From positions 1-46,768 of the IMG/VR virus record IMGVR_UViG_3300010354_000144: DNA of 46,768 bases, one strand, 5' to 3'. Within the stretch, counting starts at the first letter, position 1. The number at the start of each line of letters is the position of its first letter. The translations under genes were made by a program, and so were the position numbers. This DNA comes from a virus. Of this stretch, positions 1,053 through 45,790 are shown piece by piece. The notes beneath the pieces were generated by a model that was not told where the DNA came from, searched no databases, and was given only the letters and a program-made list of their open reading frames with translations.

Positions 1053-1596
1053 CCTTCTGGTGATCTGGAAGTTCTGGTAATAAGTCGAAAGACAATATAG
1101 AACGTCTTTTTTTTGTTTGATTCGGATGAACAAAGTGTAAAGTATAGCTAGGGAATAATAACATTGTTCCCTCTTTAACATTTTGAGGAAAAACTAAAGA
1201 TGTTGTATCTGTTCTTGGATCTTGCCAAGGAGCAACAAAACAAGTGGGACTATGCACTACTGGGTCATATTCCAAGTATATAATTCCACTAAATCCCCAT
1301 GATCTATGATTATGAATTGTTTGTTGATCACCTTTGTAATATCTCACACACCAAGCATCTGTCATTCTACAAGTAACTTTAGATTCTCGACAAAATTCAT
1401 TTAATTCGGGTTTTAGTAAGTCCTGAATATAATGAATGTATGAGTAATTATCTTTTTGGCGATCAGTTTCAAATGTTTGGAGTGGAGTTCTTATAAAATT
1501 TTTATCTTTAATTTTTCCCAAAATTGCTTTCTTTTTAAAGTCCCAGTCAGTTAGTTGGTATTGATATGTGGGATATTCAAAAAGTGGTATTTTCAT
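1048..1596 (-). CDS. 2OG-Fe(II) oxygenase, PF13759-like
   Basis: The protein is 182 residues. It contains IHNHRSWGFSGIIYLEYD followed by GTMLLFPSYTLHFVHP and a final R-S-I-L-S-F. This is the arrangement of the phage/marine 2-oxoglutarate-dependent oxygenase family (2OG-FeII_Oxy_5): His ligands in the HxH segment, a distal His after the FPS strand, and an Arg that would bind 2-oxoglutarate. It is the last of three tandem oxygenase genes; its ATG overlaps the previous stop by 4 bases (ATGA), so translation is probably coupled. The substrate is unknown; hydroxylation of a host protein, nucleotide or small molecule is possible. The family call is firm; the role is not. Confidence 0.8.
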   Translation of the reverse strand: MKIPLFEYPTYQYQLTDWDFKKKAILGKIKDKNFIRTPLQTFETDRQKDNYSYIHYIQDLLKPELNEFCRESKVTCRMTDAWCVRYYKGDQQTIHNHRSWGFSGIIYLEYDPVVHSPTCFVAPWQDPRTDTTSLVFPQNVKEGTMLLFPSYTLHFVHPNQTKKRRSILSFDLLPELPDHQKV

Positions 1597-2363
1597 CGCG
1601 CAGCATCATTTGCACAATGTGCTCTTGGACCATTTGCTCTTACATAATGAAAGAAAATTTGATGATGATATGTATCATCTGTTTTTTTGAAAACTTTATT
1701 TAAGAATTTACCAAATTTATTATATCTAGATTCTAAGGGATCTCTCCAATGATCTCTTTCACATCCCTTATAAAGAAGTCCCCATCCATCTTGAAGATTT
1801 GCAAAACGCTCTTCACCACTTGGAGTTTCAATACAGAAATGCCAAGGATTGACTGCATTAGTACTGATCTGAACACTCACGGAAATCTCACAAGCATCAC
1901 GATCAGAATGCCTTACTAGTCTTTGTCCAGCAAAGTAAAAACGATCGTAATAATAAGTATTATAAAGTTTTTCCCCAAGAATATCTTCAAGAATCAGACG
2001 AATCTTTGTGTGTGCTTGTTTGTACTGTGGGTGAGTATAACGTGCAAGAGATCCTGGAACTTGCGTTTCATCTGGATTATGGTTGAATATATCTAAAGAT
2101 CCATAATAATTAATTTGTCCCCTTTCTTTAGGAACCTCATGAAATAATTCTTTTGGATCGTATAGATTTTTAATAATCATATATCCATGTTTATCAAAAT
2201 ACTCTCTTGCTCCTTGAGGAACAGCAGGAGCACCAGGATCAATTGAACATTGAAGACCTTGCTGATGATACTTATTAAATTGTTCCATAATTGGTCTAGA
2301 TTCTACCATTTCTTTGGTAGCACCAACTGGTCTATTTGGATTAAAATCACATCCTACATTCAT
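1593..2363 (-). CDS. Putative 2OG-Fe(II) oxygenase
   Basis: The protein is 256 residues. After an N-terminal region with REYFDKHGYMIIKNLYDP, typical of the first strand of dioxygenases, it carries RLVRHSDRDACEISVSVQIS, where H-S-D is a good HxD iron-binding motif. The GWGLLYKGCERDHWRDPL stretch provides a distal His and Arg. This supports the double-stranded beta-helix dioxygenase fold. It is the middle gene of a three-oxygenase operon with a GGAGG ribosome site before its ATG, and overlaps the next gene by 4 bases. It differs clearly from its two neighbours, so it is not a recent duplicate. The substrate is unknown. Confidence 0.75.
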   Translation of the reverse strand: MNVGCDFNPNRPVGATKEMVESRPIMEQFNKYHQQGLQCSIDPGAPAVPQGAREYFDKHGYMIIKNLYDPKELFHEVPKERGQINYYGSLDIFNHNPDETQVPGSLARYTHPQYKQAHTKIRLILEDILGEKLYNTYYYDRFYFAGQRLVRHSDRDACEISVSVQISTNAVNPWHFCIETPSGEERFANLQDGWGLLYKGCERDHWRDPLESRYNKFGKFLNKVFKKTDDTYHHQIFFHYVRANGPRAHCANDAAR

Positions 2364-18086: not shown

Positions 18087-18158
18087 AGCCCCCCATCGGA
18101 TTTGAACCGATGACCGCTCGCTTACAAGGCGAGTGCTCTGCCACTGAGCTAGAGAGGC
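18087..18158 (-). tRNA. tRNA-Thr (UGU)
   Basis: 72 nt on the minus strand. Acceptor GCCTCTC pairs with GGGGGGC (two G-T pairs), D stem GCTC/GAGC, anticodon stem CTCGC/GCGAG with loop CTTGTAA (anticodon TGT), T stem ATCGG/CCGAT with loop TTCAAAT. No CCA is encoded. It starts one base after the stop codon of the 89-residue gene. Confidence 0.93.
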
Positions 18159-18159
18159 A

Positions 18160-18429
18160 TTAATCAGCAGGTAACATTTCTGGATTTTCCAGTTCAACTT
18201 CAAACATAAGAGGATGGCATTGTTCATCAATCAAATAAAAAGATGAACGATATAAATCCTCTGGTTCAAATCTTCTTTCATTATCTGCCAATTCTATGAG
18301 TTCCATATCGTACATAAGACTATCTGGAACATCATCAAAGGTAAAGGGAATATTCTGAATGAAGTACATCAGGACCAATTGAGATCCTTTATTGTACCAA
18401 ACGTATCTGGCGTCTATTCTGTATTTCAT
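18160..18429 (-). CDS. Small protein of unknown function
   Basis: The protein is 89 residues (MKYRIDARYVWYNKGSQLVL...). It is acidic towards the C-terminus (LADNERRFEPEDLY, FEVELENPEMLPAD). No membrane segment or known motif is visible. It is placed between tRNA-Leu and tRNA-Thr in the early cassette; the stop codon ends one base from the tRNA-Thr 5' end, so the mRNA would be processed by cutting out the tRNAs. I do not recognise the family. The length, start codon and position between two RNA genes on the same strand support a real gene. Confidence 0.6.
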   Translation of the reverse strand: MKYRIDARYVWYNKGSQLVLMYFIQNIPFTFDDVPDSLMYDMELIELADNERRFEPEDLYRSSFYLIDEQCHPLMFEVELENPEMLPAD

Positions 18430-18455
18430 AGAATAGTCCTTTACTTTTGATTATT

Positions 18456-18476
18456 TAGAGGAGGTTAAGTCCTCTA
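18456..18476 (-). other. Hairpin immediately 3' of tRNA-Leu
   Basis: On the minus strand TAGAGGA and TCCTCTA form a perfect 7-bp stem with a seven-base loop, starting two bases after the discriminator base of tRNA-Leu. There is no T-run behind it, so it is more likely a tRNA 3'-processing or stability element than a terminator. A CTAAATAA motif overlaps its end, about 22 nt before the 89-residue gene. Confidence 0.45.
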
Positions 18477-18477
18477 A

Positions 18478-18562
18478 TAGGAACGGAGAGAATCGAACTC
18501 TCACGGGATCTACTCCCAACGGATTTTAAGTCCGGTGCGTCTACCTATTCCGCCACGCTCCC
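18478..18562 (-). tRNA. tRNA-Leu (UAA)
   Basis: 85 nt with a long variable arm, as in class II tRNAs. Acceptor GGGAGCG pairs with CGTTCCT (one terminal G-T), anticodon loop CTTAAAA (anticodon TAA) closed by CCGGA/TCCGT, T stem GAGAG/CTCTC with loop TTCGATT, discriminator A. No CCA is encoded. Confidence 0.93.
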
Positions 18563-18569
18563 ATAAAAA

Positions 18570-30444: not shown

Positions 30445-30452
30445 TATTTACC
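30445..30452 (-). promoter_or_regulatory. Late-promoter-like element
   Basis: The minus strand reads GGTAAATA, with the TAAATA core, 23 nt before the ATG of the hub gene and overlapping the end of the preceding coding sequence. Confidence 0.42.
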
Positions 30453-33400
30453 TGAGTTCGGTTGGATCTTGAGAATAATCTTGATCTCCATCAGAAAAAC
30501 CCCCACCAAAACCAGAACCAATCGGAATAATCTGTGGAGGAATTAGAGATACTTGCTGAGATTCTGGTAATTCATATGTATAAAGATCTTCAGTTTCTAG
30601 AAAACCATCTTCTGTATATTTACTTAGAATAGAAATTAGGCTTTCAGAAGCATTTTTTCTCTGACTCACGTTTTCAGTTTGATTAATTATGTCATAAAAC
30701 TTAATTCCAAATAATTTTACAGAATCCGAATCAATAACATATTCATCTGGATGTGTTAACACCATTTGTGTTTTATCAACATACCCACCATGCAATGCTG
30801 CGGGAATTGGATCTTTCCTAGATCTTTGCACAATATCTCTTTCTGCTGCAGTTGCATAACGAGCAGGTCCTTTCCATGCACCAATACCTGCCTCTTTCAA
30901 ATATTGAACAGCAAGAATGTCTTGAACTTCTGGACTAAACTTTGTATTTGTTGATATATTTGCTCTAGCAACAACACCAGGTAAAGTATTTCCAATAAAT
31001 TGATAACGTCCAACAGCATGTAATCTTCCGAGTCTTATCCACTCAGCATTAGACATTCCAGGAATATCTCTCTGTAAACTCATAATTTCAGCAATAGTCA
31101 TATCTGTCAATGATCTTCCACCATGCTGTTTCATTTTACGAAAATCTCCACTGTATCCAAGCACTCCATATCCACCAGCAATACCTATCTGATTTACAGC
31201 ATTGTATCCACCAGCACTAGCAGACTCATATTTAGAAAGGATTGCTAATGCTTGTCTTTGAAGTGGTGTTAATTTTACAGATCCAATTGCAGTTGGTTCT
31301 GTTGACATTTGAGTAGATGCTGAGGCTGCCATTTCGGCATCTCTTTTTGTTTTTAATTTTTGATAAGTTCCACTATCAGCATGAAGACCAAGTTGAGTAT
31401 CACCACTAGCATCATATCCTCCATAAAAATAAAATCCATATCTTTTAACCATTTCCCCTAATTTTTGATTCACGTTTCCATTCTTAGCACTCCACTGATT
31501 ACCAACTCCAAGAACTCTAACTCTTGCACCAAGAGATTTTAAATATGAAAGCTGTGCCTCCACAGATTTCCAATCATCCTTAGAGTTAGCAATGCCAGTT
31601 GATAAATCAATTAATGCACCCCGGAGAGATTCACCCTTTGCTCTTAAAATCTCAAGAACTTTCTGAGCAGATCTACCAACTTTACTATCATCAGAATCAG
31701 TTCCTGGTGTAGCACCCAACCCAGCAAATCCACGAGCAATACTATCACCAATTACAAATTGTGCTTCTCCACCTATTTCAGTAAGTGGATTTTCTTGTCC
31801 AGTTTGCCCTTCTCTTGGTTTAGATTTCTCTCCACTGCTCATTCCAGATAATAAAGAAAATTGTCTTTGCAATTCATCCATAAGATAATTGGAAGAACCG
31901 ATCATACCTTCTTTAATATAAGATCTTGCCCACCCAAAAATATCAACTGGTCCAGTTAAGTCTGATAGAGATCTTTTACTATTGGGAATAAATGTACTTC
32001 CCAAAATGGAGTTGAATAAGTTATTAACTGCAGCAGCAAGAGAATTATAGTCTGCCTCAGAAGGACCATCACCCATAATTAATTTAATTGGCATTTGCAA
32101 GAATGGTTTTAAGAACGCCCCAGATGATGCAATAGTATATGCCTTAGTCAAATAACGATATGGATTTACATAGTTTGGTGACTCTGGATTTGGAAAAAAT
32201 GTTTGTATATTTGTCTTTTTGGTTTGTTGTCCAGTTAGAGGATTTGTGTATAGAACTTGACCATTCGAATCTTGACCTGGAGATAGTGGGGAAATTGGTA
32301 TTTCAAAAGTTCTTGAAACTGTTTTCTTTACCTGAGATCTACCAATTGCACCACCAACTACTTCACCACCCCTGGTAATTGTTCCACCTTGTGCATATTT
32401 TTTAACTTTAACCTCACCACCCCCATACATCCTATTCATCATCTGCCTTTGAGCAGACGCATCACCGTAAATATTTCCCCACGATCCCTTTTCTTTTGCA
32501 AGTAATCCTAAACTAAATGTGTTTAGTATTTGGCGCACTTGTTCACGAACTCTTGCATCAAACTTTGCAAGATTCTCTCTTTGAGATCTAATTCCAGTAG
32601 CATCACCACTTAAGGACATGATACCAAAATTAATCAGTTCACCTAAGTACCTAAATGGAGCACCAATTATATCAAGTAAACTACCAACAGCATTTGAAAT
32701 AAAGTTATAAATTCTAAGACCAGGAATAGCAGTATAATATGCAAGTAACTTTAATCCCCTAGTAATAAAATTTTTATCATTCGTCGCATCATCAAGTTTC
32801 TTCTGAAGTTCATTTTGGAGATTCTGAGTAAACTTTCTTTGTTGAAAAGTGAGTTCTCCTAACAGTGAGGCAGCAGTTCCAACAAGCATAATCGGAGCGC
32901 CAACTCTTGCAACATTACCAAGTCTACTTGCTGCTGCTTGAAGAGCCGCTCTAGCACCTCTTCTTTTCGTTACTTGTTTAGAAACTTCTTCTCCGACTTT
33001 TCCAAGTGCATCTTGATTTAAATCAGTCTGTGCTTTCAATGATATTAAATCAGAAAAAAGCATACCAGAAATAAGCATTAAGTTTAATGTCTTATTCGTC
33101 ATCCCCAAAGCAGATTCATAAGCAGCAATCCCTTTGTCGCCATATAAAAGTTTGTATTGTTCTTTTCCAAAATCAATAATTCCATAAACCTTATCAACAA
33201 AAGTTACCATTGCATTGAGAATTGTTCCAGCAAACTCAACCGCAAAATTACCAATCTTAAATCCAGTAATTACAAGACCTTTTAATTTTGGAAGATGTGG
33301 TATTAATTTAAGAGTTAATGCTCCAAATAAAACTGAGAATAAAAAGTTCTTTACAGAATCCAGAAAACCAAGTCTTGGAACACGTATTTTATTTGCTACA

Positions 33401-33594
33401 GACCTCTCTTTTTCATTTGTGCGATCTTCATATCTTTTTTCTACTTCGTCTCTACGATTTCTTTCTAGTAACTTTATTCTACTTTTAAAAGCAATATCTT
33501 TATATTTGTTCTTCTGCCCTACAAGTTTTTCTACACGAACAACTTGTTTCTGAATAATAAAGGCAGTAGGATTCTTTAACTTGAGATATGCCAT
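30448..33594 (-). CDS. Large tail protein with SGNH-like and lysozyme-like domains
   Basis: The protein is 1048 residues. It shares an N-terminal region (LGFLDSVKNFLFSVLFGALT) and a C-terminal region (HPDEYVIDSDSVKLFG...IPPQIIPI) with the next gene, so they are paralogues. Residues about 610-750 look like an SGNH/GDSL hydrolase: FVIGDSIARG (catalytic Ser), an Asn in LSTGIANSKDDW, and LGLHADSGTYQKL (His). Residues about 775-930 look like a lysozyme/transglycosylase: LSKYESASAGGYNAVN (possible catalytic Glu) and GRYQFIGNTLP. Hydrophobic helices lie at about 250-330. The likely role is a tail-lumen or hub protein that opens the envelope during injection. No activity can be proven from sequence. 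Confidence 0.7.
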   Translation of the reverse strand: MAYLKLKNPTAFIIQKQVVRVEKLVGQKNKYKDIAFKSRIKLLERNRRDEVEKRYEDRTNEKERSVANKIRVPRLGFLDSVKNFLFSVLFGALTLKLIPHLPKLKGLVITGFKIGNFAVEFAGTILNAMVTFVDKVYGIIDFGKEQYKLLYGDKGIAAYESALGMTNKTLNLMLISGMLFSDLISLKAQTDLNQDALGKVGEEVSKQVTKRRGARAALQAAASRLGNVARVGAPIMLVGTAASLLGELTFQQRKFTQNLQNELQKKLDDATNDKNFITRGLKLLAYYTAIPGLRIYNFISNAVGSLLDIIGAPFRYLGELINFGIMSLSGDATGIRSQRENLAKFDARVREQVRQILNTFSLGLLAKEKGSWGNIYGDASAQRQMMNRMYGGGEVKVKKYAQGGTITRGGEVVGGAIGRSQVKKTVSRTFEIPISPLSPGQDSNGQVLYTNPLTGQQTKKTNIQTFFPNPESPNYVNPYRYLTKAYTIASSGAFLKPFLQMPIKLIMGDGPSEADYNSLAAAVNNLFNSILGSTFIPNSKRSLSDLTGPVDIFGWARSYIKEGMIGSSNYLMDELQRQFSLLSGMSSGEKSKPREGQTGQENPLTEIGGEAQFVIGDSIARGFAGLGATPGTDSDDSKVGRSAQKVLEILRAKGESLRGALIDLSTGIANSKDDWKSVEAQLSYLKSLGARVRVLGVGNQWSAKNGNVNQKLGEMVKRYGFYFYGGYDASGDTQLGLHADSGTYQKLKTKRDAEMAASASTQMSTEPTAIGSVKLTPLQRQALAILSKYESASAGGYNAVNQIGIAGGYGVLGYSGDFRKMKQHGGRSLTDMTIAEIMSLQRDIPGMSNAEWIRLGRLHAVGRYQFIGNTLPGVVARANISTNTKFSPEVQDILAVQYLKEAGIGAWKGPARYATAAERDIVQRSRKDPIPAALHGGYVDKTQMVLTHPDEYVIDSDSVKLFGIKFYDIINQTENVSQRKNASESLISILSKYTEDGFLETEDLYTYELPESQQVSLIPPQIIPIGSGFGGGFSDGDQDYSQDPTELR

Positions 33595-33595
33595 T

Positions 33596-36500
33596 TTATG
33601 CCCTCAGTTCTAATCTGTCTTGCTCAACATTAACATCGCTTCCCCCGCCACCAAATGCAGAAGAGCTCATGGGAATATAAATTGGTGGTGATGGAATTAA
33701 AATATCCTCTTCATCATCAACCACCATAACAGGTCTTTGATCTATTTTTCTACCGGTGTATTTACTAAGATGTTGTATTAGGGATGAAGATTTTTCTTTT
33801 CTTTGATTTTCATTTTCAATACCATTGATCATTCTAAAAAAGTTATCTCCACCATATAAATCAACAGAATCTTTATCAATTACGTATTCTCCCTTGTGCA
33901 ATAATCTCATACCACCCATTAGAGTTGGACCACCAGATTCTCTACTTGCAGTAGATCCAGGAGCTCCATGTCCAACAAATGCTTTAGTTCCCAATATTCT
34001 TGCAGAATTTCCAAATCCATGAATACTAGAAACAACATTACCAACAGCAAGAGGTAAACGTATACCATTTGATCCTGCAATATCAAGACCACCAAATGAA
34101 CTTCCCATAGATCTGCCCATGTGTGCTCTTTGTTCTTGAGCGACATATTTTTTTAAGGTAGCATCATCAGGTGGTGATTTTGGATTTACCCAAATATTAG
34201 CATTGGAAAATAAGTGTGGAGTATTTGCTTTCAACAATGCTTTAGATACTAAAAATGCAGCATTTTGTGCTTCAACCAATCCTTGATTCGTCTTCCCATT
34301 TAACCACCTATCACCTTCTGGATCATAAAGTTCTAATGGTCCAATGTGAAAGTGAGGACCAGTTGATCTTCCAGTCATTCCTTGAATAAAAGTTCCAGGA
34401 CTTACAAATCTAACATTACCAACTCCTGTTATTCCTCCACCCAATGAAACACTACCAGGATCTCCGTCAGGTGTCTCTGGATCACAAACACAAGGATCAA
34501 CATTAGATGCTGGAGAACCTGGAGAAATTTTTGCAGTAGAAGGAGATGCCCCCAAGTGCTTAAGTTTTTCTGTATAAATCCTATAGCTTTCGCCAGCAGT
34601 TCTTTTTGTTTGCCCGTAATATGGTGATAGACCCGCCCACTCTTTTCCCAAAATTTCAAAATCAGATACAGTAAGTTGTGCTGAAGGATTAACACCACGA
34701 TTTTTTACCAACCATAAAGCAGCTTTATCTTGATTGGCAGGAGAAAAATCTGAGAGACCTAGTGCTTTTGCAGCATTTGCCCACGTTCCTGGCATGAACT
34801 GATATTTACCAGCAGCTGCTGATGCATATCCACCAGAACGAACAACAGTATCTGGATGTTTCCAAGGTGGTGCCTGAAATTTACCACCACCAAACATTGT
34901 TCTATATCCATCAGGTCCCGCAGTCCCCTCAACTGCAGATATTGTTTCCAATAAAGCCTTTTCAAATGCATTACCAGATGTTACAAATTGCTCATTTGGA
35001 TCTGGACAAGCACACTCATCATCAGCAGCAGCTGGATTTGGTCCCCCTTCCATCGGAACAGGGTCCAATCCAATTTCATTTCTCAATAATCCAAGCATAG
35101 TTCCAAATTGACCACTCATAGAATTCATTAAAAATCTTGATACATTTCTAGAAAGATCATTCAATTGAATTACAGATATAAGTTTTTGATACGCAGTAGG
35201 ATTTCTATTTGCTAATCCAGTCAACATAAAGTCAGATAAACTTTCTGCAGCACTATCGTAGTCAAACTTACTAACTTGATCACCAAGTAATGCTTTAGAT
35301 GTAAGAGACATTACAGGACCAAGATAGTTTATATCGGAAATAATATTGTAAGAATTTGTCATGTAAGATCTTCTATTCATCGTCAATAAATCAGATGCTC
35401 CAGGAAAAACTTTTGCAAATCCAGTTTCTCCTCCAGTAGATCCGCCAACTTTTGGATTTTTTGGTTTGGAAATTTGCTTTCTGGGAATATCAACTTTCTT
35501 TTTTTCTTTCTGCTGCTGTTTTGTATCACCCCCACCAAATCCAAATATACCACCAAGACTACTACCTATTCCACCCAACATCCCAAGAAATCCACCAGAT
35601 GCATACTTTCTTACTTTAATAACTTTTCCACCACCATAATAACCCATATCTTTGACTGCCTTTTTCCCATAAAAACTTCCAAATGATCCTGGGCTTTGTA
35701 AATTTGAAGCAATATCCTTTCTACCAAAGAAATCAAATAAAGGGGAAAATATTCCAGAGAATCTTCTTAAGTTTTCTCTAACCCTTGCATCAAACTTTCC
35801 AAGATTAGTGAATTGCTCATCCAATCCTTTCTTATTACCAGATAACTTCAGAAATGCGCCACGCACCAATTCAATTCCATACCTAAATGGAGCACCTAAA
35901 ATATCAAAGACTGTTCCAGCACCCTCCAAGAATGCCAACGGAACGCTAAAAAGTGAAGACGCTGGACCCGAAAAAGATTTTAGTCCCTTTGTCCATTTTG
36001 CAATTTGAAATATACCTTCTCCAGCCGCAGAAAGAAGCAGTCCAGCACCAGCAACAATTCCACCAGAAGCAAGAGGACCTAGTGCCTGTGCTGAAGCAAC
36101 ATTCTGAACTCTCTCAGCAGCAGTTGCTGCTACCTCAGTTTCTACAGTCTGTGTAATTGTTTTTGCAGTGTTAGTATAAACCTTACTTCCGCTGAACAGA
36201 CCCTCAAATATATTGAAGTCACTGAATATCATAGAAGCAATCAAAATTTGATTCATGACTTTGGTGCTTTCACCAGTCGCTTTCTCTAAAGATTGTATTG
36301 CCTTTTCACCACCAATTTTTCCAACTATGTCTTTTGCATGACTATATGCTTTATAACCATAGTCAACAAATGTGATTAATCCATTTAATATTGATCCACC
36401 AAGTTCAATAATAGAATTTCCTATTTTAAAAATAAATGTCCCAACCTGAAGAAGTTGGGGGAGATAATTTGATAACCTTAGTGCAATAAATCCGAGTAAA

Positions 36501-36760
36501 ACATTTGTTATGAAAGTTTTTAGAGAATCAAGAAATCCCAATTTTTTAGTTACTTTCTTGATTGGTTTTCCTACACTACTTAATGTTCTTTCTAAAAGAT
36601 TTTCATAATTAATAAATCTTTCCCTTTCAGCATTACTTCTTTTTGCAGAAATTCTTTTTTGTTGAACATTAAGAGATGACTTAAGCAGTTTCTCCTTGTC
36701 AATAAACTGCCTCTTAAGGGACTGTAAAGTACCAGTTAATGGAGAAACTAACTTTGCCAT
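33596..36760 (-). CDS. Large tail protein with GH104-type lysozyme and M23-like segments
   Basis: The protein is 1054 residues and paralogous to the previous entry at both ends (LGFLDSLKTFITNVLLGFIA; HKGEYVIDKDSVDLYG). Residues about 600-735 resemble the lambda endolysin (GH104) fold: LLETISAVEGTAGPDGYRTM, ASAAAGKYQFMPGTWANAA, FSPANQDKAALWLVKNRG and YGQT. Further on, TGRSTGPHFHIGP (about 805) and GGLDIAGSNG (about 892) with GHGAPGST (about 932) look like parts of an M23 peptidase, but in reversed order and with the usual His four residues before Asp replaced by Phe. Peptidoglycan cutting during infection is the inferred role. Coupled closely to both neighbours (gap of 1 base; TAATG overlap). 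Confidence 0.72.
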   Translation of the reverse strand: MAKLVSPLTGTLQSLKRQFIDKEKLLKSSLNVQQKRISAKRSNAERERFINYENLLERTLSSVGKPIKKVTKKLGFLDSLKTFITNVLLGFIALRLSNYLPQLLQVGTFIFKIGNSIIELGGSILNGLITFVDYGYKAYSHAKDIVGKIGGEKAIQSLEKATGESTKVMNQILIASMIFSDFNIFEGLFSGSKVYTNTAKTITQTVETEVAATAAERVQNVASAQALGPLASGGIVAGAGLLLSAAGEGIFQIAKWTKGLKSFSGPASSLFSVPLAFLEGAGTVFDILGAPFRYGIELVRGAFLKLSGNKKGLDEQFTNLGKFDARVRENLRRFSGIFSPLFDFFGRKDIASNLQSPGSFGSFYGKKAVKDMGYYGGGKVIKVRKYASGGFLGMLGGIGSSLGGIFGFGGGDTKQQQKEKKKVDIPRKQISKPKNPKVGGSTGGETGFAKVFPGASDLLTMNRRSYMTNSYNIISDINYLGPVMSLTSKALLGDQVSKFDYDSAAESLSDFMLTGLANRNPTAYQKLISVIQLNDLSRNVSRFLMNSMSGQFGTMLGLLRNEIGLDPVPMEGGPNPAAADDECACPDPNEQFVTSGNAFEKALLETISAVEGTAGPDGYRTMFGGGKFQAPPWKHPDTVVRSGGYASAAAGKYQFMPGTWANAAKALGLSDFSPANQDKAALWLVKNRGVNPSAQLTVSDFEILGKEWAGLSPYYGQTKRTAGESYRIYTEKLKHLGASPSTAKISPGSPASNVDPCVCDPETPDGDPGSVSLGGGITGVGNVRFVSPGTFIQGMTGRSTGPHFHIGPLELYDPEGDRWLNGKTNQGLVEAQNAAFLVSKALLKANTPHLFSNANIWVNPKSPPDDATLKKYVAQEQRAHMGRSMGSSFGGLDIAGSNGIRLPLAVGNVVSSIHGFGNSARILGTKAFVGHGAPGSTASRESGGPTLMGGMRLLHKGEYVIDKDSVDLYGGDNFFRMINGIENENQRKEKSSSLIQHLSKYTGRKIDQRPVMVVDDEEDILIPSPPIYIPMSSSAFGGGGSDVNVEQDRLELRA

Positions 36761-39018
36761 TATCTAACACCAAGTTGGTTAGCAACTTTTCTATTACTAC
36801 CAGGCTTAGAAGATGAGAATCTAGGAACCGTTGGTTTTCCACCCTTTCCTCCACTGTATCCACCAGTTCCAATGGTATTTGCTTTTGTTCTTACAACTTT
36901 TGGAGCGGGTTTAGGTGTAGGTTTAATTACTTTTGGTTTTGGTTTAGTTGTAGCAAGTCTTGCCTTTCTTGCTTGAACAGCAGCATTGTAATCTTTATAA
37001 TATTTCCCATCGGAAGATGAGTAATATCTACCAATTGATGAGGCACCAGCTTGTTTCACTCTTGCCTGAGATGCTTTATCTTCAGCAGCAATTTTTGCTT
37101 TGTCTTTTTCGCTACCAAATAATCCAGTAAATGATCTTCCGAGTTGACCAAACATCCCACCACGTTTTATATCCTCTCTAGTTCTAGCAAGACTTTCTGC
37201 ATCAAATCTTTTACCTTGAGAATACCTTGCCCCAGGTGTTCTTTCATAACTCAACTTATTTAATCTTTGCTGAGAAGCTAAAGAAATCATCCTAGATTTT
37301 CTAGCAGCAAGTGCATCATTATAATTTCCATATGTTTTTTGATCCGAAGATGAATAATACTTACCCTTTGATGCTGCATAATCAGTTCTTGCCTTCATTG
37401 AAGGTCCACCAAACATTCCACCAGTCTTTTTATCACCAGATAGTCCAGTACCAAATACTCCAGCATCTCTTGCCGCAAGTGTTGCATCAATCGCAATAGA
37501 GGCACCTGTTCCCAGTCCAGGAATAGATGATGCTGCACCAGATAGCAATTCAAGACTTGCTCCAAGGATATCACCTTTCATTGCTCTTTGTGCAGCAAAA
37601 ACTGCACCCATACCCAATCCAAGTAGAGGAATTTTCTTCAGTAAACTTTTTCCTAATGAACCAGCACCAATTTTTGAAATTGATTTCAATGCCATATTGG
37701 ATCCCATCTTTGCCAATGGTTTTGCAAGTCTTCTTCCACCATATTGCAATCCAGTTCTTGTGGCAAATCTTCCAAGACCACGGCTAGCTGCTTGAGCCAT
37801 TGGTCTTGCAGTCATCATTGTCATGCCAGGACCTGACATTCCCCCTTCTATAATAGAAGAAAGAGCATCTGGTTGTTCTGAAGATAATTCTGCAGATGGA
37901 GAATCTTCACCAATGTATCCACCACCAGCAGCATGAATTCTTTCATAAACTACTTTGGGGCGATTAGTTCCACCACCAGCGGCATTCATTGCCTCAAGTA
38001 ATCCTACACCAAATTTATTAACTGCACCACGAGACATGACAAACTCACCGTCAGTGAGCATTGCAGGAACTTTATCAATTCCCTTAGGTCCGGACACAAT
38101 TCCAGGGAATCCATTTAATAAAGCAGCAAATCCACCAGATTTAAAGAACTGCGTAAATATCCCCAACTTAGAATCAACTTGCCCACCAGTTTCGGCAAGC
38201 ATGGTTTTGAAATCGATAAAACCACCACCAAAAGCTTGTGCTGTCGGTATTCCTGGAAGTTGTGGAATCTGAAGTTGTGGTGCCCCTCCAGTTTCACCAC
38301 CTACCATTCCTTGATATAATTTGTACCCACCATAAGCAATACCAGCGCCAGCACCAAGTTGCGCCAGTTTTATAAGTATTCCTTTTAATCCACCACCGCC
38401 GCTGCCAAGAGCGGATAGCATTGATCCTGCCTTTTTCAATCTAAAGGCATTTGCAATAGCAGCAGCAAGTTTAAATGCTACAGAACCAAGTAGAGCAACT
38501 GCTCTAATACTTGTTGCAGCAATTGATCTTACTACCCTACCAAATCCAGTGCCAAATAAAATATATCCGGCAACAAGAGAAGGCCACCAATCTCGCAAAA
38601 ATCTAGCAATAGATCGGACTTTATCTTGATTATCTTTATTCGCAAACCAATCTACTAAATTTAATACTGCTTTGCCTAAAAATAGAGTGACAAAGAATTG
38701 TATTATTTGATCTAGAATTCCCTTTACGGGGGCAACAACTGCCTGTGCAGTTGCTTTAACCGTAGCAAACGTACTTTCTAACCCAAGTTCGACTTTTCTT
38801 CTTCTAGCAGATTCTTGAGTTCTTCTTTCCTGATCCGATTCCTTAACTACTTGAGTGTTTTGTAAAGTAAGTAGTTGTATAATTCTGGTTAAAGATTTTG
38901 ATATGTCCTGAAGAACAGCAGTATCAGCAGGAGCAGCAATCAACTGTGTCTGTGGTTGAACCGCAGCAGTTTGAACAGTAGTTGTTTTACCTAGAAGCTT
39001 CTGCTGATTTACTGCCAT
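36760..39018 (-). CDS. Tape-measure-like tail protein
   Basis: The protein is 752 residues. It lies directly after the gp26-like chaperone pair, the usual position of the tape measure. The middle has hydrophobic helices (ILDQIIQFFVTLFLGKAVLN, DWWPSLVAGYILFGTG, alanine-rich segments). The motif GPKGIDKVPAMLTDGEFVMS, followed by RGAVNKFG, is recurrent in phage tape-measure and tail-lumen proteins. A related DEYVID/GEYVIDKDSV motif occurs at the end of the two larger neighbours. The C-terminus holds repeated YYSSSD.K.Y..Y..A..ARK units and a basic end (RTKANTIGTGGYSGGKGGKP). T4 gp29 is 590 residues. Which of the three large proteins sets tail length cannot be decided here. Confidence 0.62.
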   Translation of the reverse strand: MAVNQQKLLGKTTTVQTAAVQPQTQLIAAPADTAVLQDISKSLTRIIQLLTLQNTQVVKESDQERRTQESARRRKVELGLESTFATVKATAQAVVAPVKGILDQIIQFFVTLFLGKAVLNLVDWFANKDNQDKVRSIARFLRDWWPSLVAGYILFGTGFGRVVRSIAATSIRAVALLGSVAFKLAAAIANAFRLKKAGSMLSALGSGGGGLKGILIKLAQLGAGAGIAYGGYKLYQGMVGGETGGAPQLQIPQLPGIPTAQAFGGGFIDFKTMLAETGGQVDSKLGIFTQFFKSGGFAALLNGFPGIVSGPKGIDKVPAMLTDGEFVMSRGAVNKFGVGLLEAMNAAGGGTNRPKVVYERIHAAGGGYIGEDSPSAELSSEQPDALSSIIEGGMSGPGMTMMTARPMAQAASRGLGRFATRTGLQYGGRRLAKPLAKMGSNMALKSISKIGAGSLGKSLLKKIPLLGLGMGAVFAAQRAMKGDILGASLELLSGAASSIPGLGTGASIAIDATLAARDAGVFGTGLSGDKKTGGMFGGPSMKARTDYAASKGKYYSSSDQKTYGNYNDALAARKSRMISLASQQRLNKLSYERTPGARYSQGKRFDAESLARTREDIKRGGMFGQLGRSFTGLFGSEKDKAKIAAEDKASQARVKQAGASSIGRYYSSSDGKYYKDYNAAVQARKARLATTKPKPKVIKPTPKPAPKVVRTKANTIGTGGYSGGKGGKPTVPRFSSSKPGSNRKVANQLGVR

Positions 39019-39028
39019 TCTACTTTAC

Positions 39029-39211
39029 TTAGAGACTAGACTTTTGTTGTTGCTGTTTTAGTTCTTCCTCTTCAAGATGCTGTTGTAATAACCCAACATA
39101 AATGTCTCTTTCCCAAGGAATCATATTTTCAATTTCCCATAATGAATATTTATGGTACTGTATCAAGGCAAAATTAAGTCTAAAGTAATTCTCAAGGTCC
39201 ATATGGACCAT
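39029..39211 (-). CDS. Frameshift extension of the gp26-like tail chaperone
   Basis: The frame encodes 60 residues from the first ATG (MVHMDLENYFRLNFALIQYH...), but it is open further upstream through the slippery site at 39220-39226. It contains YSLWEIENMIPWERDIYVGL, the short W-x-R type helix seen in the second part of two-part tail assembly chaperones (lambda GT, P2 E/E'), and ends in a Glu/Gln-rich helix. A -1 shift would join it to the upstream 239-residue protein as a product of about 301 residues. It could also be translated alone, as no strong ribosome site is seen before either ATG. It lies between the gp26-like gene and the tape-measure-like gene. Confidence 0.7.
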   Translation of the reverse strand: MVHMDLENYFRLNFALIQYHKYSLWEIENMIPWERDIYVGLLQQHLEEEELKQQQQKSSL

Positions 39212-39241
39212 GGCTACGCGAAAAAACTTGCTAACCCTTCC
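39196..39241 (-). promoter_or_regulatory. Probable -1 programmed ribosomal frameshift site
   Basis: On the minus strand, in order: a Shine-Dalgarno-like GGAAGGG (39241-39235); eight bases; the heptamer T-TTT-TTC in the correct zero frame (39226-39220), with the zero-frame TAG at 39216-39214; then after ten bases a hairpin GGTCC-ATAT-GGACC (39209-39196). A -1 slip enters the 60-residue ORF in frame with no intervening stop. These are the three elements known from bacterial -1 frameshifts; the phage P2 E/E' site is T-TTT-TTG. Confidence 0.78.
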
Positions 39242-39933
39242 AGAACAACTTCACTTTCAACTGATGTTTTTGGATTCTTAACAGTAATTTTATGAGAAAG
39301 TTTAGGCATTGTTTCAAAGAATTTTACAATATCCTTAAATTGAGAAGAATTCATTGATTCTAAGAACTCTGTCAATTCTTTTTTAGTTACATCTGCAGCA
39401 GACCAAACCTCATCTTCAGTATAAATTTTATCAATACAAGATGCAATCAATTCAAATGATTGATCCATTGCATTATTATTATTGAAATCAAAATTATTCT
39501 TAATAAACTGTTCAAGAGATGGATATTTCATTTCCATCATAATATTATCATCAAGTTTAATTTTATTACTGTGCTCTTCGTTCTTTTGAACTTGAATATC
39601 ATCAAGATCTATCTTGACTAAAACATTAGTTTCATTGTCATCAGGGCAGATAATATTAACCTCAACCTCTTCTCCAACAGATTTTCCTCTAATGTTTAAG
39701 AAGAGATATTCAATATCAAACGTTGGTAAGTTTTCTACTTTAATATCTTTTGCAAGAATACAATTTTTGATTACAGATTTAATTGCATTTGTAATTTGTT
39801 TATTGTCTTCACTTTCCAATGCAATAACTAAAAGCTTTTCTTCTTTTACTAAGAAAGGTCTATACTTGATTGTTTTTCCTGTTGATGGCAACTCAAGTTC
39901 ATAAGTTGGTGTAGAAATCTTAGGTAATGGCAT
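39214..39933 (-). CDS. 26: gp26-like baseplate hub subunit/tail assembly chaperone
   Basis: The protein is 239 residues. The N-terminus (MPLPKISTPTYELELPSTGK, IKYRPFLVKEEKLLVIALES) and overall length match the T4-like gp26/T4_baseplate family. The rest is mostly helical and acidic (ITNAIKSVIKNCILAKDIKV, FELIASCIDKIYTEDEVW, KELTEFLESMNSSQFKDIVK), as in tail assembly chaperones. It ends ASFFA at a slippery sequence from which a -1 shift would add about 63 residues. In siphophages and P2-like phages a similar pair coats the tape measure during tail assembly; the same role is inferred here from position just upstream of the tape-measure-like gene. Two CTAAATAA elements lie 31 and 43 nt upstream. 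Confidence 0.68.
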   Translation of the reverse strand: MPLPKISTPTYELELPSTGKTIKYRPFLVKEEKLLVIALESEDNKQITNAIKSVIKNCILAKDIKVENLPTFDIEYLFLNIRGKSVGEEVEVNIICPDDNETNVLVKIDLDDIQVQKNEEHSNKIKLDDNIMMEMKYPSLEQFIKNNFDFNNNNAMDQSFELIASCIDKIYTEDEVWSAADVTKKELTEFLESMNSSQFKDIVKFFETMPKLSHKITVKNPKTSVESEVVLEGLASFFA

Positions 39934-39963: not shown

Positions 39964-39983
39964 TTATTTAGATGCTTATTTAG
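39964..39983 (-). promoter_or_regulatory. Tandem late-promoter-like elements
   Basis: Two copies of CTAAATAA (39983-39976 and 39971-39964) on the minus strand lie 43 and 31 nt before the gp26-like ATG. Doubling of the element is unusual in this window. Confidence 0.5.
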
Positions 39984-40933
39984 AATCCAAGAGGACCATT
40001 AATTGGTCTTCCTTTAAATGCACCACCAGTTCCAGCAGAATAAGTTCCAGATCTAGCTCTATTTCTAAGCGCCTCTCTGGCAGCAGAACCAACAGGGAAC
40101 CTAAGATTTGCATCAGCAAGAATTGCCCTCTGCTCAGCAGTCCCTACAGATTCAACCATTTGGCGGTTTGATAGTGCCCAAATTGCAAGATCATCTCTAC
40201 CACCATTCAATGCGGCATTAGCTTGCGCTTGGTTTATAGGATTATCTGATGCTCCCTGAGCAACTGCTTCAGACCCATCTGCTTTTGGTGATGCTGGAGA
40301 TAAAAAGTATCTAACATAAGATAGTGATACATTACATTTTAACAAACCGGTTCCATCATAAGAAACTGGCATTGATTGCATTGCAATTGGGAAACAATTA
40401 ACAAAATTATAGGATAATCTTGTACCTTTTGCTCCTATTGCCTGCCCCATACTACTTTTTTCAAATTTAATAACTTCCAATCCTTGATTGCAAATATAAT
40501 TTTTTGGCCAATTCATTCTATAAAAATATTGTTCATCAGAAACTCCTGGACGACCACTTTCAGCAGATGCAATTTGCTCCCCAGCAATATACTTCATCCA
40601 CACTTCAAAAAATCGAATTGGCAGATAATTTGTTGCATCAACATAAAATCCCAAATCAATTCTATCATCATACTGTCTTCTATATGCATGACGATGAGTT
40701 GATCCATGATAATCGCCAGTAATATCATGTGTCGCAAATGTAGAACCAGGGAGTAATGCATCAGAACAAAGAAGTTCTAACTTATCAATATCATAAGAAA
40801 GTCCATTTTGAAAAAGATACTGTGGTGTTAAACCCTGAGGTTTGGGTATGGACACAACAAAATGATTTGTGGTTGCAGGATGTAGTAAAGTGTTCTTTAT
40901 TTCAGCTAAAGATCTACTTCTTGGTACAGCCAT
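39980..40933 (-). CDS. Baseplate/tail-tube initiator protein, gp54-like
   Basis: The protein is 317 residues; T4 gp54 is 320. The core has tail-tube-family features: TTNHFVVSIPKPQGL, LLCSDALLPGSTFATHDITG, RRQYDDRIDLGFYVDATNYL and RFFEVWMKYIAG (a conserved helix-strand region), then GLLKCNVSLSYVRYFLSP. T4 gp54, gp48 and the tube protein gp19 are related, so this could also be another tube-like cap protein; length favours gp54. The C-terminal about 90 residues are Ala/Gly/Arg-rich and probably flexible. It starts divergently from the gp4 operon, and its own start region overlaps the gp4 late promoter on the other strand. Confidence 0.62.
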   Translation of the reverse strand: MAVPRSRSLAEIKNTLLHPATTNHFVVSIPKPQGLTPQYLFQNGLSYDIDKLELLCSDALLPGSTFATHDITGDYHGSTHRHAYRRQYDDRIDLGFYVDATNYLPIRFFEVWMKYIAGEQIASAESGRPGVSDEQYFYRMNWPKNYICNQGLEVIKFEKSSMGQAIGAKGTRLSYNFVNCFPIAMQSMPVSYDGTGLLKCNVSLSYVRYFLSPASPKADGSEAVAQGASDNPINQAQANAALNGGRDDLAIWALSNRQMVESVGTAEQRAILADANLRFPVGSAAREALRNRARSGTYSAGTGGAFKGRPINGPLGF

Positions 40934-40965: not shown

Positions 40966-41412
40966 ATGATGGCAGAAAGTATTAAAAGTAAGTATAAACC
41001 GTCATACCCCAAAAAATATAAAGGGGATCCCAATAATATTATTTGCCGCAGTAGTTGGGAAAGAAAATTTTGTCATTGGTGTGATCTGAATGAAAGTATT
41101 TTGGAATGGGGTAGTGAAGAGTTTTACATTCCTTACATATCACCAGTAGATAGAAGAGTTCATCGTTACTATCCAGATTTTATTATTAAAGTTAAAGAGA
41201 GTACTGGACAAATCAAAACATATGTGATTGAAGTTAAACCCAAAAAACAGACCAGACCTCCAGTTAAGAAATCAAGAGTAACAAAATCTTATCTGCATGA
41301 ATGTGTTACTTATGAGGTCAATCAAGCAAAATGGAAAGCAGCAAAAGAGTTTTGTGCGGATAGAATGATAGAATTCAAAATCATTACCGAAGAAGAATTA
41401 GGTATCAAGTAA
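40966..41412 (+). CDS. 4: Head completion protein gp4
   Basis: The protein is 148 residues; T4 gp4 is 150. IICRSSWERKFCHWCDLNES followed by WGSEEFYIPYISPVDRRVHR, YYPDFIIK and YVIEVKPKKQT shows a TnsA-like nuclease fold: E (in SWERKF), D (in PDF) and E-x-K (EVKPKK) form a PD-(D/E)xK set. In T4, gp4 finishes packaged heads before tail joining. Two ATGs stand in tandem and either may be used. The stop overlaps the next ATG (TAATG). First gene of the only plus-strand operon in the window. Confidence 0.85.
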   Translation: MMAESIKSKYKPSYPKKYKGDPNNIICRSSWERKFCHWCDLNESILEWGSEEFYIPYISPVDRRVHRYYPDFIIKVKESTGQIKTYVIEVKPKKQTRPPVKKSRVTKSYLHECVTYEVNQAKWKAAKEFCADRMIEFKIITEEELGIK

Positions 41413-44849: not shown

Positions 44850-44878
44850 ATTCTACAGGTCGGAACCCGTTTTGTCAA
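44850..44878 (-). promoter_or_regulatory. Sigma70-like promoter of gp32
   Basis: The minus strand has TTGACA (44878-44873) and TAGAAT (44855-44850) with a 17-base spacer, 46 nt before the gp32 ATG. The promoter lies largely within the last codons of the DUF1825-like gene, so gp32 can be made independently of the upstream genes. Confidence 0.72.
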
Positions 44879-45197
44879 TCTGCTCTTTCATGACATCAAG
44901 CATACGAGACATATTATTAAAAATAATATTCATATCCACATTTGGTGGTAGACCCATCATTGATGCTGATTGAGCAATACGTTCTTTCATTTCAACTGCT
45001 TCAGGATCATCAGATAAACTCAAACGTGTATAAAGAACCTTCTGTTTATCAAGAAGTTTCTCTAAAATTTCAACATGTTCTATTTTCTCTTCTTTTGTCA
45101 TCGTGGGAAACTTAAAAACATTTTTATAAATGTCTTCTTGTAACTCACTGATTTCAGCCATCTCAGCACGGACGACTTCAGATTTGAAGAAACTCAT
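44853..45197 (-). CDS. DUF1825-like protein between gp59 and gp32
   Basis: The protein is 114 residues, all helical (MSFFKSEVVRAEMAEISELQ, then KEEKIEHVEILEKLLDKQKV and MLDVMKEQID). Its start (M-x-F-F-x-S-E-x-V), its middle (helix with a YTRLSLSDDPEA turn) and its end (MG..P......FNNMSRMLDVMK) resemble the DUF1825 family, found in nearly all cyanobacteria. In T4 the genes 59 and 32 are adjacent; this gene is an addition. Its ATG overlaps the gp59 stop (ATGA). The function of the family is not known to me; a link with replication or late transcription is suggested only by its neighbours. Confidence 0.7.
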   Translation of the reverse strand: MSFFKSEVVRAEMAEISELQEDIYKNVFKFPTMTKEEKIEHVEILEKLLDKQKVLYTRLSLSDDPEAVEMKERIAQSASMMGLPPNVDMNIIFNNMSRMLDVMKEQIDKTGSDL

Positions 45198-45790
45198 GAA
45201 TCTCCTAAAACAATTTCTTTTAAAAGTTTACGGTAACGAAATACATCAATATTTAGGAACGGGCTATATTTTTTTATTTTCATACTTACGGTTTCCCACA
45301 CTGGATCATCAAAATTTTTATTAAAATCATTCACGTATCCAAGAATTTTATCAAGAATTACCATAGTTTCTATGGAAACTTCTCCACTTAAATACTTTTT
45401 AAGAATAATTGGATGTCCTTTACTGGTTTGAAATACTAGGTCAATATTTTTATTTGGGATTACAGACTCTACTTCTTCTCTAAACACATAAGAAAGTGAC
45501 TGTGTTCTTTTTTTCCAGGAGGTGTATCTATCATCACCTTCACGTATCATTTCACCAATCCAAAGTTTGCTTGGATCAGTGCAAGCAATAAAATTTGATA
45601 CAAAAAATTCTTCTACTTCTTTATCTGTTTTTTGACGAGCAACTTTCTCAAACCAAAAACGATCTTTACGTTTGTAAAATGATTGAACGGTTGCACGACT
45701 TTTACCACAATACTTGTGATAATCATAACTGTCTTTGGTGAAATGATTTTTCAAAGACAGATAACATTTATAGGCATCAAATGGCATCAT
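45194..45790 (-). CDS. 59: Helicase loader gp59
   Basis: The protein is 198 residues; T4 gp59 is 217. FDAYKCYLSLKNHFTKDSYD followed by YHKYCGKSRATVQSFYKRKD, RFWFEKVA and FFVSNFIACTDPSKLWIGEM matches the T4 order YKLYLMIKQHM...YDVIKYNW...KRRDKYFFQKL...FISNLVAN..AWIGD. The C-terminal part (ILKKYLSGEVSIETMVILDK, WETVSMKIKKYSPFLNID) also aligns with T4. It loads the gp41 helicase on gp32-covered DNA. Two ATGs are in tandem at the start. The gene directly follows the second copy of the intergenic repeat, and no clear ribosome site is visible before it. Confidence 0.88.
   Translation of the reverse strand: MMPFDAYKCYLSLKNHFTKDSYDYHKYCGKSRATVQSFYKRKDRFWFEKVARQKTDKEVEEFFVSNFIACTDPSKLWIGEMIREGDDRYTSWKKRTQSLSYVFREEVESVIPNKNIDLVFQTSKGHPIILKKYLSGEVSIETMVILDKILGYVNDFNKNFDDPVWETVSMKIKKYSPFLNIDVFRYRKLLKEIVLGDS

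Follow-up and report, generated by a model that had tools for sequence, protein, structure and literature searches.

Frameshifting in the tail assembly chaperone (TAC) gene is reportedly conserved in several groups of T4-like phages, and T4 itself is said to use genes 26 and 51. Here we describe a candidate -1 ribosomal frameshift junction between a gp26-like gene and a short gp51-like open reading frame (ORF) in a marine T4-like phage, the IMG/VR virus record IMGVR_UViG_3300010354_000144, whose whole length of 46,768 bases (hereafter the window) carries T4-like tail and replication genes of the cyanophage type. A 2016 review described the G-T frameshift as widespread in long-tailed phages "except T4" (PMC5009743). 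As cited in later papers, Vladimirov, Gautam and Davidson (2022) reported that some T4-like phages encode a short and a long chaperone in separate genes, without a frameshift (the PRFect paper, PMC10885494), and that poly-T slippery signals occur in the TAC-N genes of T4-like phages (PMC12846349). By these citations, a frameshifted tail chaperone in T4-like phages was already reported in 2022, and the first-pass annotation of the window was wrong to regard the arrangement as previously undescribed.

Organization of the gp26/gp51 junction

The minus-strand junction reads CTG GAA GGG TTA GCA AGT TTT TTC GCG TAG CC ATG GTC CAT ATG GAC C. The first-pass annotation had reported a Shine-Dalgarno (SD)-like GGAAGGG, an eight-base gap and an in-frame T-TTT-TTC, all of which are present between 39241 and 39220, as well as a 14-base palindrome with a 5-bp hairpin and a -1 frame leading into a 60-residue ORF, which we also found; the -1 frame is free of stops from the heptamer to 39029. 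The stop that it placed six bases after the heptamer is there, at a different distance, the TAG beginning 3 nt and ending 6 nt after it. The predicted -1 fusion would be 301 residues long and would read GLASFF-RVAMVHMDLENYFR across the slip site.

The gp26-like ORF belongs over its full length to PF12322/phrog_150, the family of T4 gp26 (262.6 bits against a cut-off of 24.5 in a profile search, residues 9-239), and the 60-residue ORF belongs to phrog_634, the baseplate hub assembly catalyst (gp51) family. The short ORF shows a further match, to the final 40 positions of phrog_150, which is a first sign that both parts form one protein in some phages. A tail-tube-like gene lies directly upstream of the junction and large tail ORFs directly downstream. 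We consider it very probable (roughly 90%) that a single gene comprises the gp26-like ORF and the short ORF downstream of it and gives two products by -1 ribosomal frameshifting, a chaperone pair of the G/GT type. Recasting the gp26-like "hub" protein as such a chaperone, as proposed in the first pass, is well supported at the sequence level by homology and gene organization.

Conservation of the slippery heptamer

In a first sample of 80 IMG/VR relatives of the gp26-like protein, 79 junctions were readable, and all of these, like the window, had T TTT TTC at the same place followed by an open -1 frame. Scans with the S-RSM4, P-SSM2, Mosig and PX29 proteins and 16 isolate records brought the total to 297 non-identical junctions, 295 of which carried an in-frame U6 heptamer (TTTTTTC 277, TTTTTTT 17, TTTTTTA 1). 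Another Phe-Phe pair of this gene (FFxTMP) served as an internal control, its codons being TTC TTT in 135 cases, TTT TTT in 81, TTT TTC in 7 and TTC TTC in 4 (n=227). The -1 frame was open in 294/295 homologues, nearly all with extensions of 58-71 codons. The two checks proposed in the first-pass annotation thus gave positive outcomes: conservation of the heptamer, and of the -1 frame relation with it, extends across cyanophages and beyond them, and no cyanophage-type relative had the heptamer destroyed by synonymous change.

The same arrangement was found in P-SSM2, syn9, S-RSM4, Pelagibacter phage Mosig, KVP40 and Aeromonas PX29, and also in Cronobacter S13, Stenotrophomonas Marzo and Agrobacterium OLIVR6. 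Sinorhizobium phiM7 has T TTT TTT and Rhizobium RHph_I1_18 has T TTT TTA. The two junctions without U6 came from the distant Vibrio phages Kuja (Ackermannviridae) and K413, with the -1 frame still open across both.

In-frame heptamers of the form X XXY YYZ are common in the window (107 in 32 ORFs), and only two of them have a -1 frame running >60 nt beyond the ORF end. A chance origin of the gp26 heptamer is excluded by its retention in 295/297 junctions, against 8/80 for the other of these two, in the gp59-like helicase loader gene. Seven codons short of its stop, that gene (45194-45790, minus strand) carries an in-frame TTTAAAA from which an open -1 frame leads into the next ORF (44853-45197, minus strand). 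Counterparts occur in 8/80 homologues (TTTAAAA 5, TTTAAAG 3), and we rejected it as a second frameshift site because it is not conserved; it is probably a chance occurrence beside a 4-nt overlap.

Expression of the gp51-like domain

In many cyanophage records gp51 is either missing or annotated as a gene of its own, with a start that is arbitrary. As those annotations assume, the short ORF could be translated on its own by termination-reinitiation from the ATG at 39211, which sits only 2 nt past the UAG in the window. We regard this as very unlikely, since many homologues have CTN in place of that ATG and the annotated start differs between phages, S-WAM2 having no annotated gene there. No ATG, GTG or TTG occurs within the first 13 codons after the slip in 84/294 junctions (locus L029 is an example near the window), so that -1 frameshifting is the only simple route to the product in those phages. 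Independent translation would also leave the codon conservation of the heptamer without explanation. The frameshift would account for the observation by Sullivan et al. (2010) that gp51 of cyanophages and vibriophages is missing the ~200 N-terminal residues present in the T4-type protein (PMC3037559).

T4 is an informative exception. Its gp26 and gp51 both match PF12322 over the full length of that family and match each other in a two-sequence BLASTP comparison (2e-06), and by these criteria they are paralogues. T4 gp51 runs in frame into the phrog_634 domain, and T4 gene 26 ends GAG TTC TTT GAG TTA CTA TAA, the heptamer being lost and the -1 frame closed at once. The slippery site is thus gone where the long form is separately encoded. 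This gene pair would explain why the 2016 review set T4 apart, its relatives probably using the frameshift.

Putative stimulatory elements around the heptamer

Codon choice at the SD-like site differs from that elsewhere in the same genes. The Glu-Gly pair there uses GAG in 144/175 cases, GAA GGG in 23/175 and GAA with another Gly codon in 8/175, whereas Glu-Gly pairs elsewhere use GAA with GGT, GGA or GGC in 123/175. Of the sites, 74% carried an SD-like match of at least 4 bases, compared with about 25% of control positions; most matches ended 8-10 nt upstream of the heptamer.

The 36-nt windows just past the heptamer had unusually low folding energies, with mean z values of -1.69 for the window-like set, -4.81 for the S-RSM4-like set, -4.24 for the P-SSM2-like set and -1.78 for the Mosig-like set, against about -0.3 on average elsewhere in the gene. 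The downstream stem is CACUCUUCCA...UGGAAGGGU in the S-RSM4-like set and AGUAUGGCUCA...UGAGUCAUACU in the P-SSM2-like set; in these two lineages the hairpin has a 9-11 bp stem of unrelated sequence, and the window's 5-bp palindrome forms a shorter hairpin at the corresponding place. The exact palindrome was rejected as a universal element, each pair forming in only 41-59% across all sets at that position. Within the His-Met subset, the inner three pairs were kept in 51/72 sequences, compared with 0-1 in slid versions; the wobble base of the Val/Ile codon tracked the choice of Asp or Asn (Fisher p=1.6e-6, uncorrected for relatedness). In a tree test, coincident changes in the hairpin were not outliers among variable column pairs, and the covariation in close relatives is partial and suggestive only. 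An Rfam search returned two tRNAs and no frameshift element.

It is possible, though somewhat doubtful, that each cyanophage lineage has its own stimulatory hairpin, of unrelated sequence but at the same place, after the near-invariant heptamer, lineage-specific and evolutionarily replaced structures setting the short-to-long ratio. We found no description of lineage-specific hairpins or of the SD-like codon bias in the literature examined, in which the 2022 T4-like study is represented by the papers citing it.

Proposed mechanism

RNA polymerase can slip on homopolymers, and transcriptional slippage on the retained T6 run is a source of the -1 product even less probable than reinitiation, as six bases are short for polymerase slippage, a longer run of T would promote it yet the seventh base is C in 277/295, and the SD-like bias and downstream structure point to the ribosome.

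We infer instead that ribosomal frameshifting occurs here as a minority event. Most ribosomes would terminate at the UAG, yielding the short chaperone of 239 residues (G / TAC-N). The SD-like sequence upstream and the hairpin downstream would hold a minority of ribosomes in place on U UUU UUC, where both tRNA-Phe would re-pair one base further back; reading would then continue through CGC GUA GCC to give a 301-residue long form (GT / TAC-NC) with the gp51-type domain at its end. Judging from homology to T4 gp26/gp51 and from the analogy with lambda G/GT, both forms may bind the tape measure protein and bring in tube subunits as the tail is assembled.

Several points weigh against ribosomal frameshifting at a chaperone gene. 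The loci behind the junction counts are related to one another and cannot be counted as independent events. For a tape measure gene, this phage offers only a candidate, a 752-residue ORF with a weak match (E=0.0075). The window's hairpin is short (5 bp) and its start, 10 nt downstream, is a little far, and the exact hairpin sequence is conserved in close relatives only. In S-SCSM1 (MK867354.2; locus L081, 1915-1935), the heptamer is intact and the -1 frame is closed by ~11 extra nt after the gp26 stop, which, judged against neighbours, appear to be either an insertion or a sequencing artefact.

Predicted fold of the short form

An AlphaFold2 model of the short form alone was built from 35 aligned sequences and was of fair quality (mean pLDDT, the per-residue confidence score, 85). 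Its structure matches in BFVD were gp26-type baseplate hub proteins. A fold search of the PDB placed 2ob9, the tail assembly chaperone of HK97, third and fifth, below significance (2ob9_B: E=1.0, probability 0.77, 63 columns, root-mean-square deviation 2.9), and a PDB sequence search gave no significant match. An HK97 gp14-like chaperone fold is only hinted at by the model.

Features of the window

Table 1 Features at and around the gp26/gp51 junction of the window.
Feature	Position	Strand	Evidence
gp26-like ORF, 239 residues, predicted short form (TAC-N)	39214..39933	-	PF12322 T4_baseplate E=3.8e-78; phrog_150 baseplate hub E=1.6e-83
SD-like GGAAGGG	39235..39241	-	sequence; 8-nt gap to heptamer
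Slippery heptamer T TTT TTC, in frame (AGT TTT TTC GCG TAG)	39220..39226	-	sequence; U6 in 295/297 junctions
0-frame stop TAG	39214..39216	-	sequence
14-nt palindrome GGTCCATATGGACC; hairpin GGUCC-AUAU-GGACC, beginning 10 nt past heptamer	39196..39209	-	sequence and folding
Predicted -1 frame extension encoding C-terminal domain	39029..39226	-	phrog_634 E=1e-27 and C-terminal end of phrog_150
Short ORF, 60 residues, gp51-like, within -1 extension	39029..39211	-	phrog_634
Tail-tube-like gene, upstream neighbour	39980..40933	-	PF23849; phrog_45 tail tube
First large downstream tail ORF, 752 residues, candidate tape measure	36760..39018	-	phrog_35029 (unknown function) E=8.6e-55; weak tape-measure match E=0.0075

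Two adjacent large tail ORFs of 1048 and 1054 residues (30448-36760, minus strand) are paralogues (30% identity over 538 residues), with endolysin-like segments in both. A head-closure gp4-like protein (40966-41412, plus strand) has a match to the N-terminal domain of TnsA-like endonucleases (PF08722; E=1.5e-23). The window also encodes a ferrochelatase-like auxiliary gene (1593-2363, minus strand; phrog_2954 E=1.4e-55), flanked by two 2-oxoglutarate (2OG)-Fe(II) oxygenase genes, and tRNA genes Thr(TGT) and Leu(TAA) (18087-18563, minus strand).

Comparison with known systems

The T4-like phages of Vladimirov et al. (2022), as described in the papers citing that study, share with this locus the short/long chaperone logic and poly-T slippery sites in TAC-N genes. 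T4 gp26 and gp51 are likewise both of PF12322, and gp51 ends with the same C-terminal domain as the -1 extension here, but in T4 they are encoded separately, on opposite strands, and the slippery heptamer is absent. The predicted short and long forms resemble lambda gpG/gpGT, from which the phage of the window differs in its U UUU UUC site and its proteins of family PF12322; a relation to the lambda proteins in sequence was neither sought nor seen. The TAC of the Vandenendeviridae (phage Adele, PMC12846349) likewise comes from a contractile-tail phage and has a conserved poly-T -1 signal, although the Adele motif is GTTTTT and the phage family is another.
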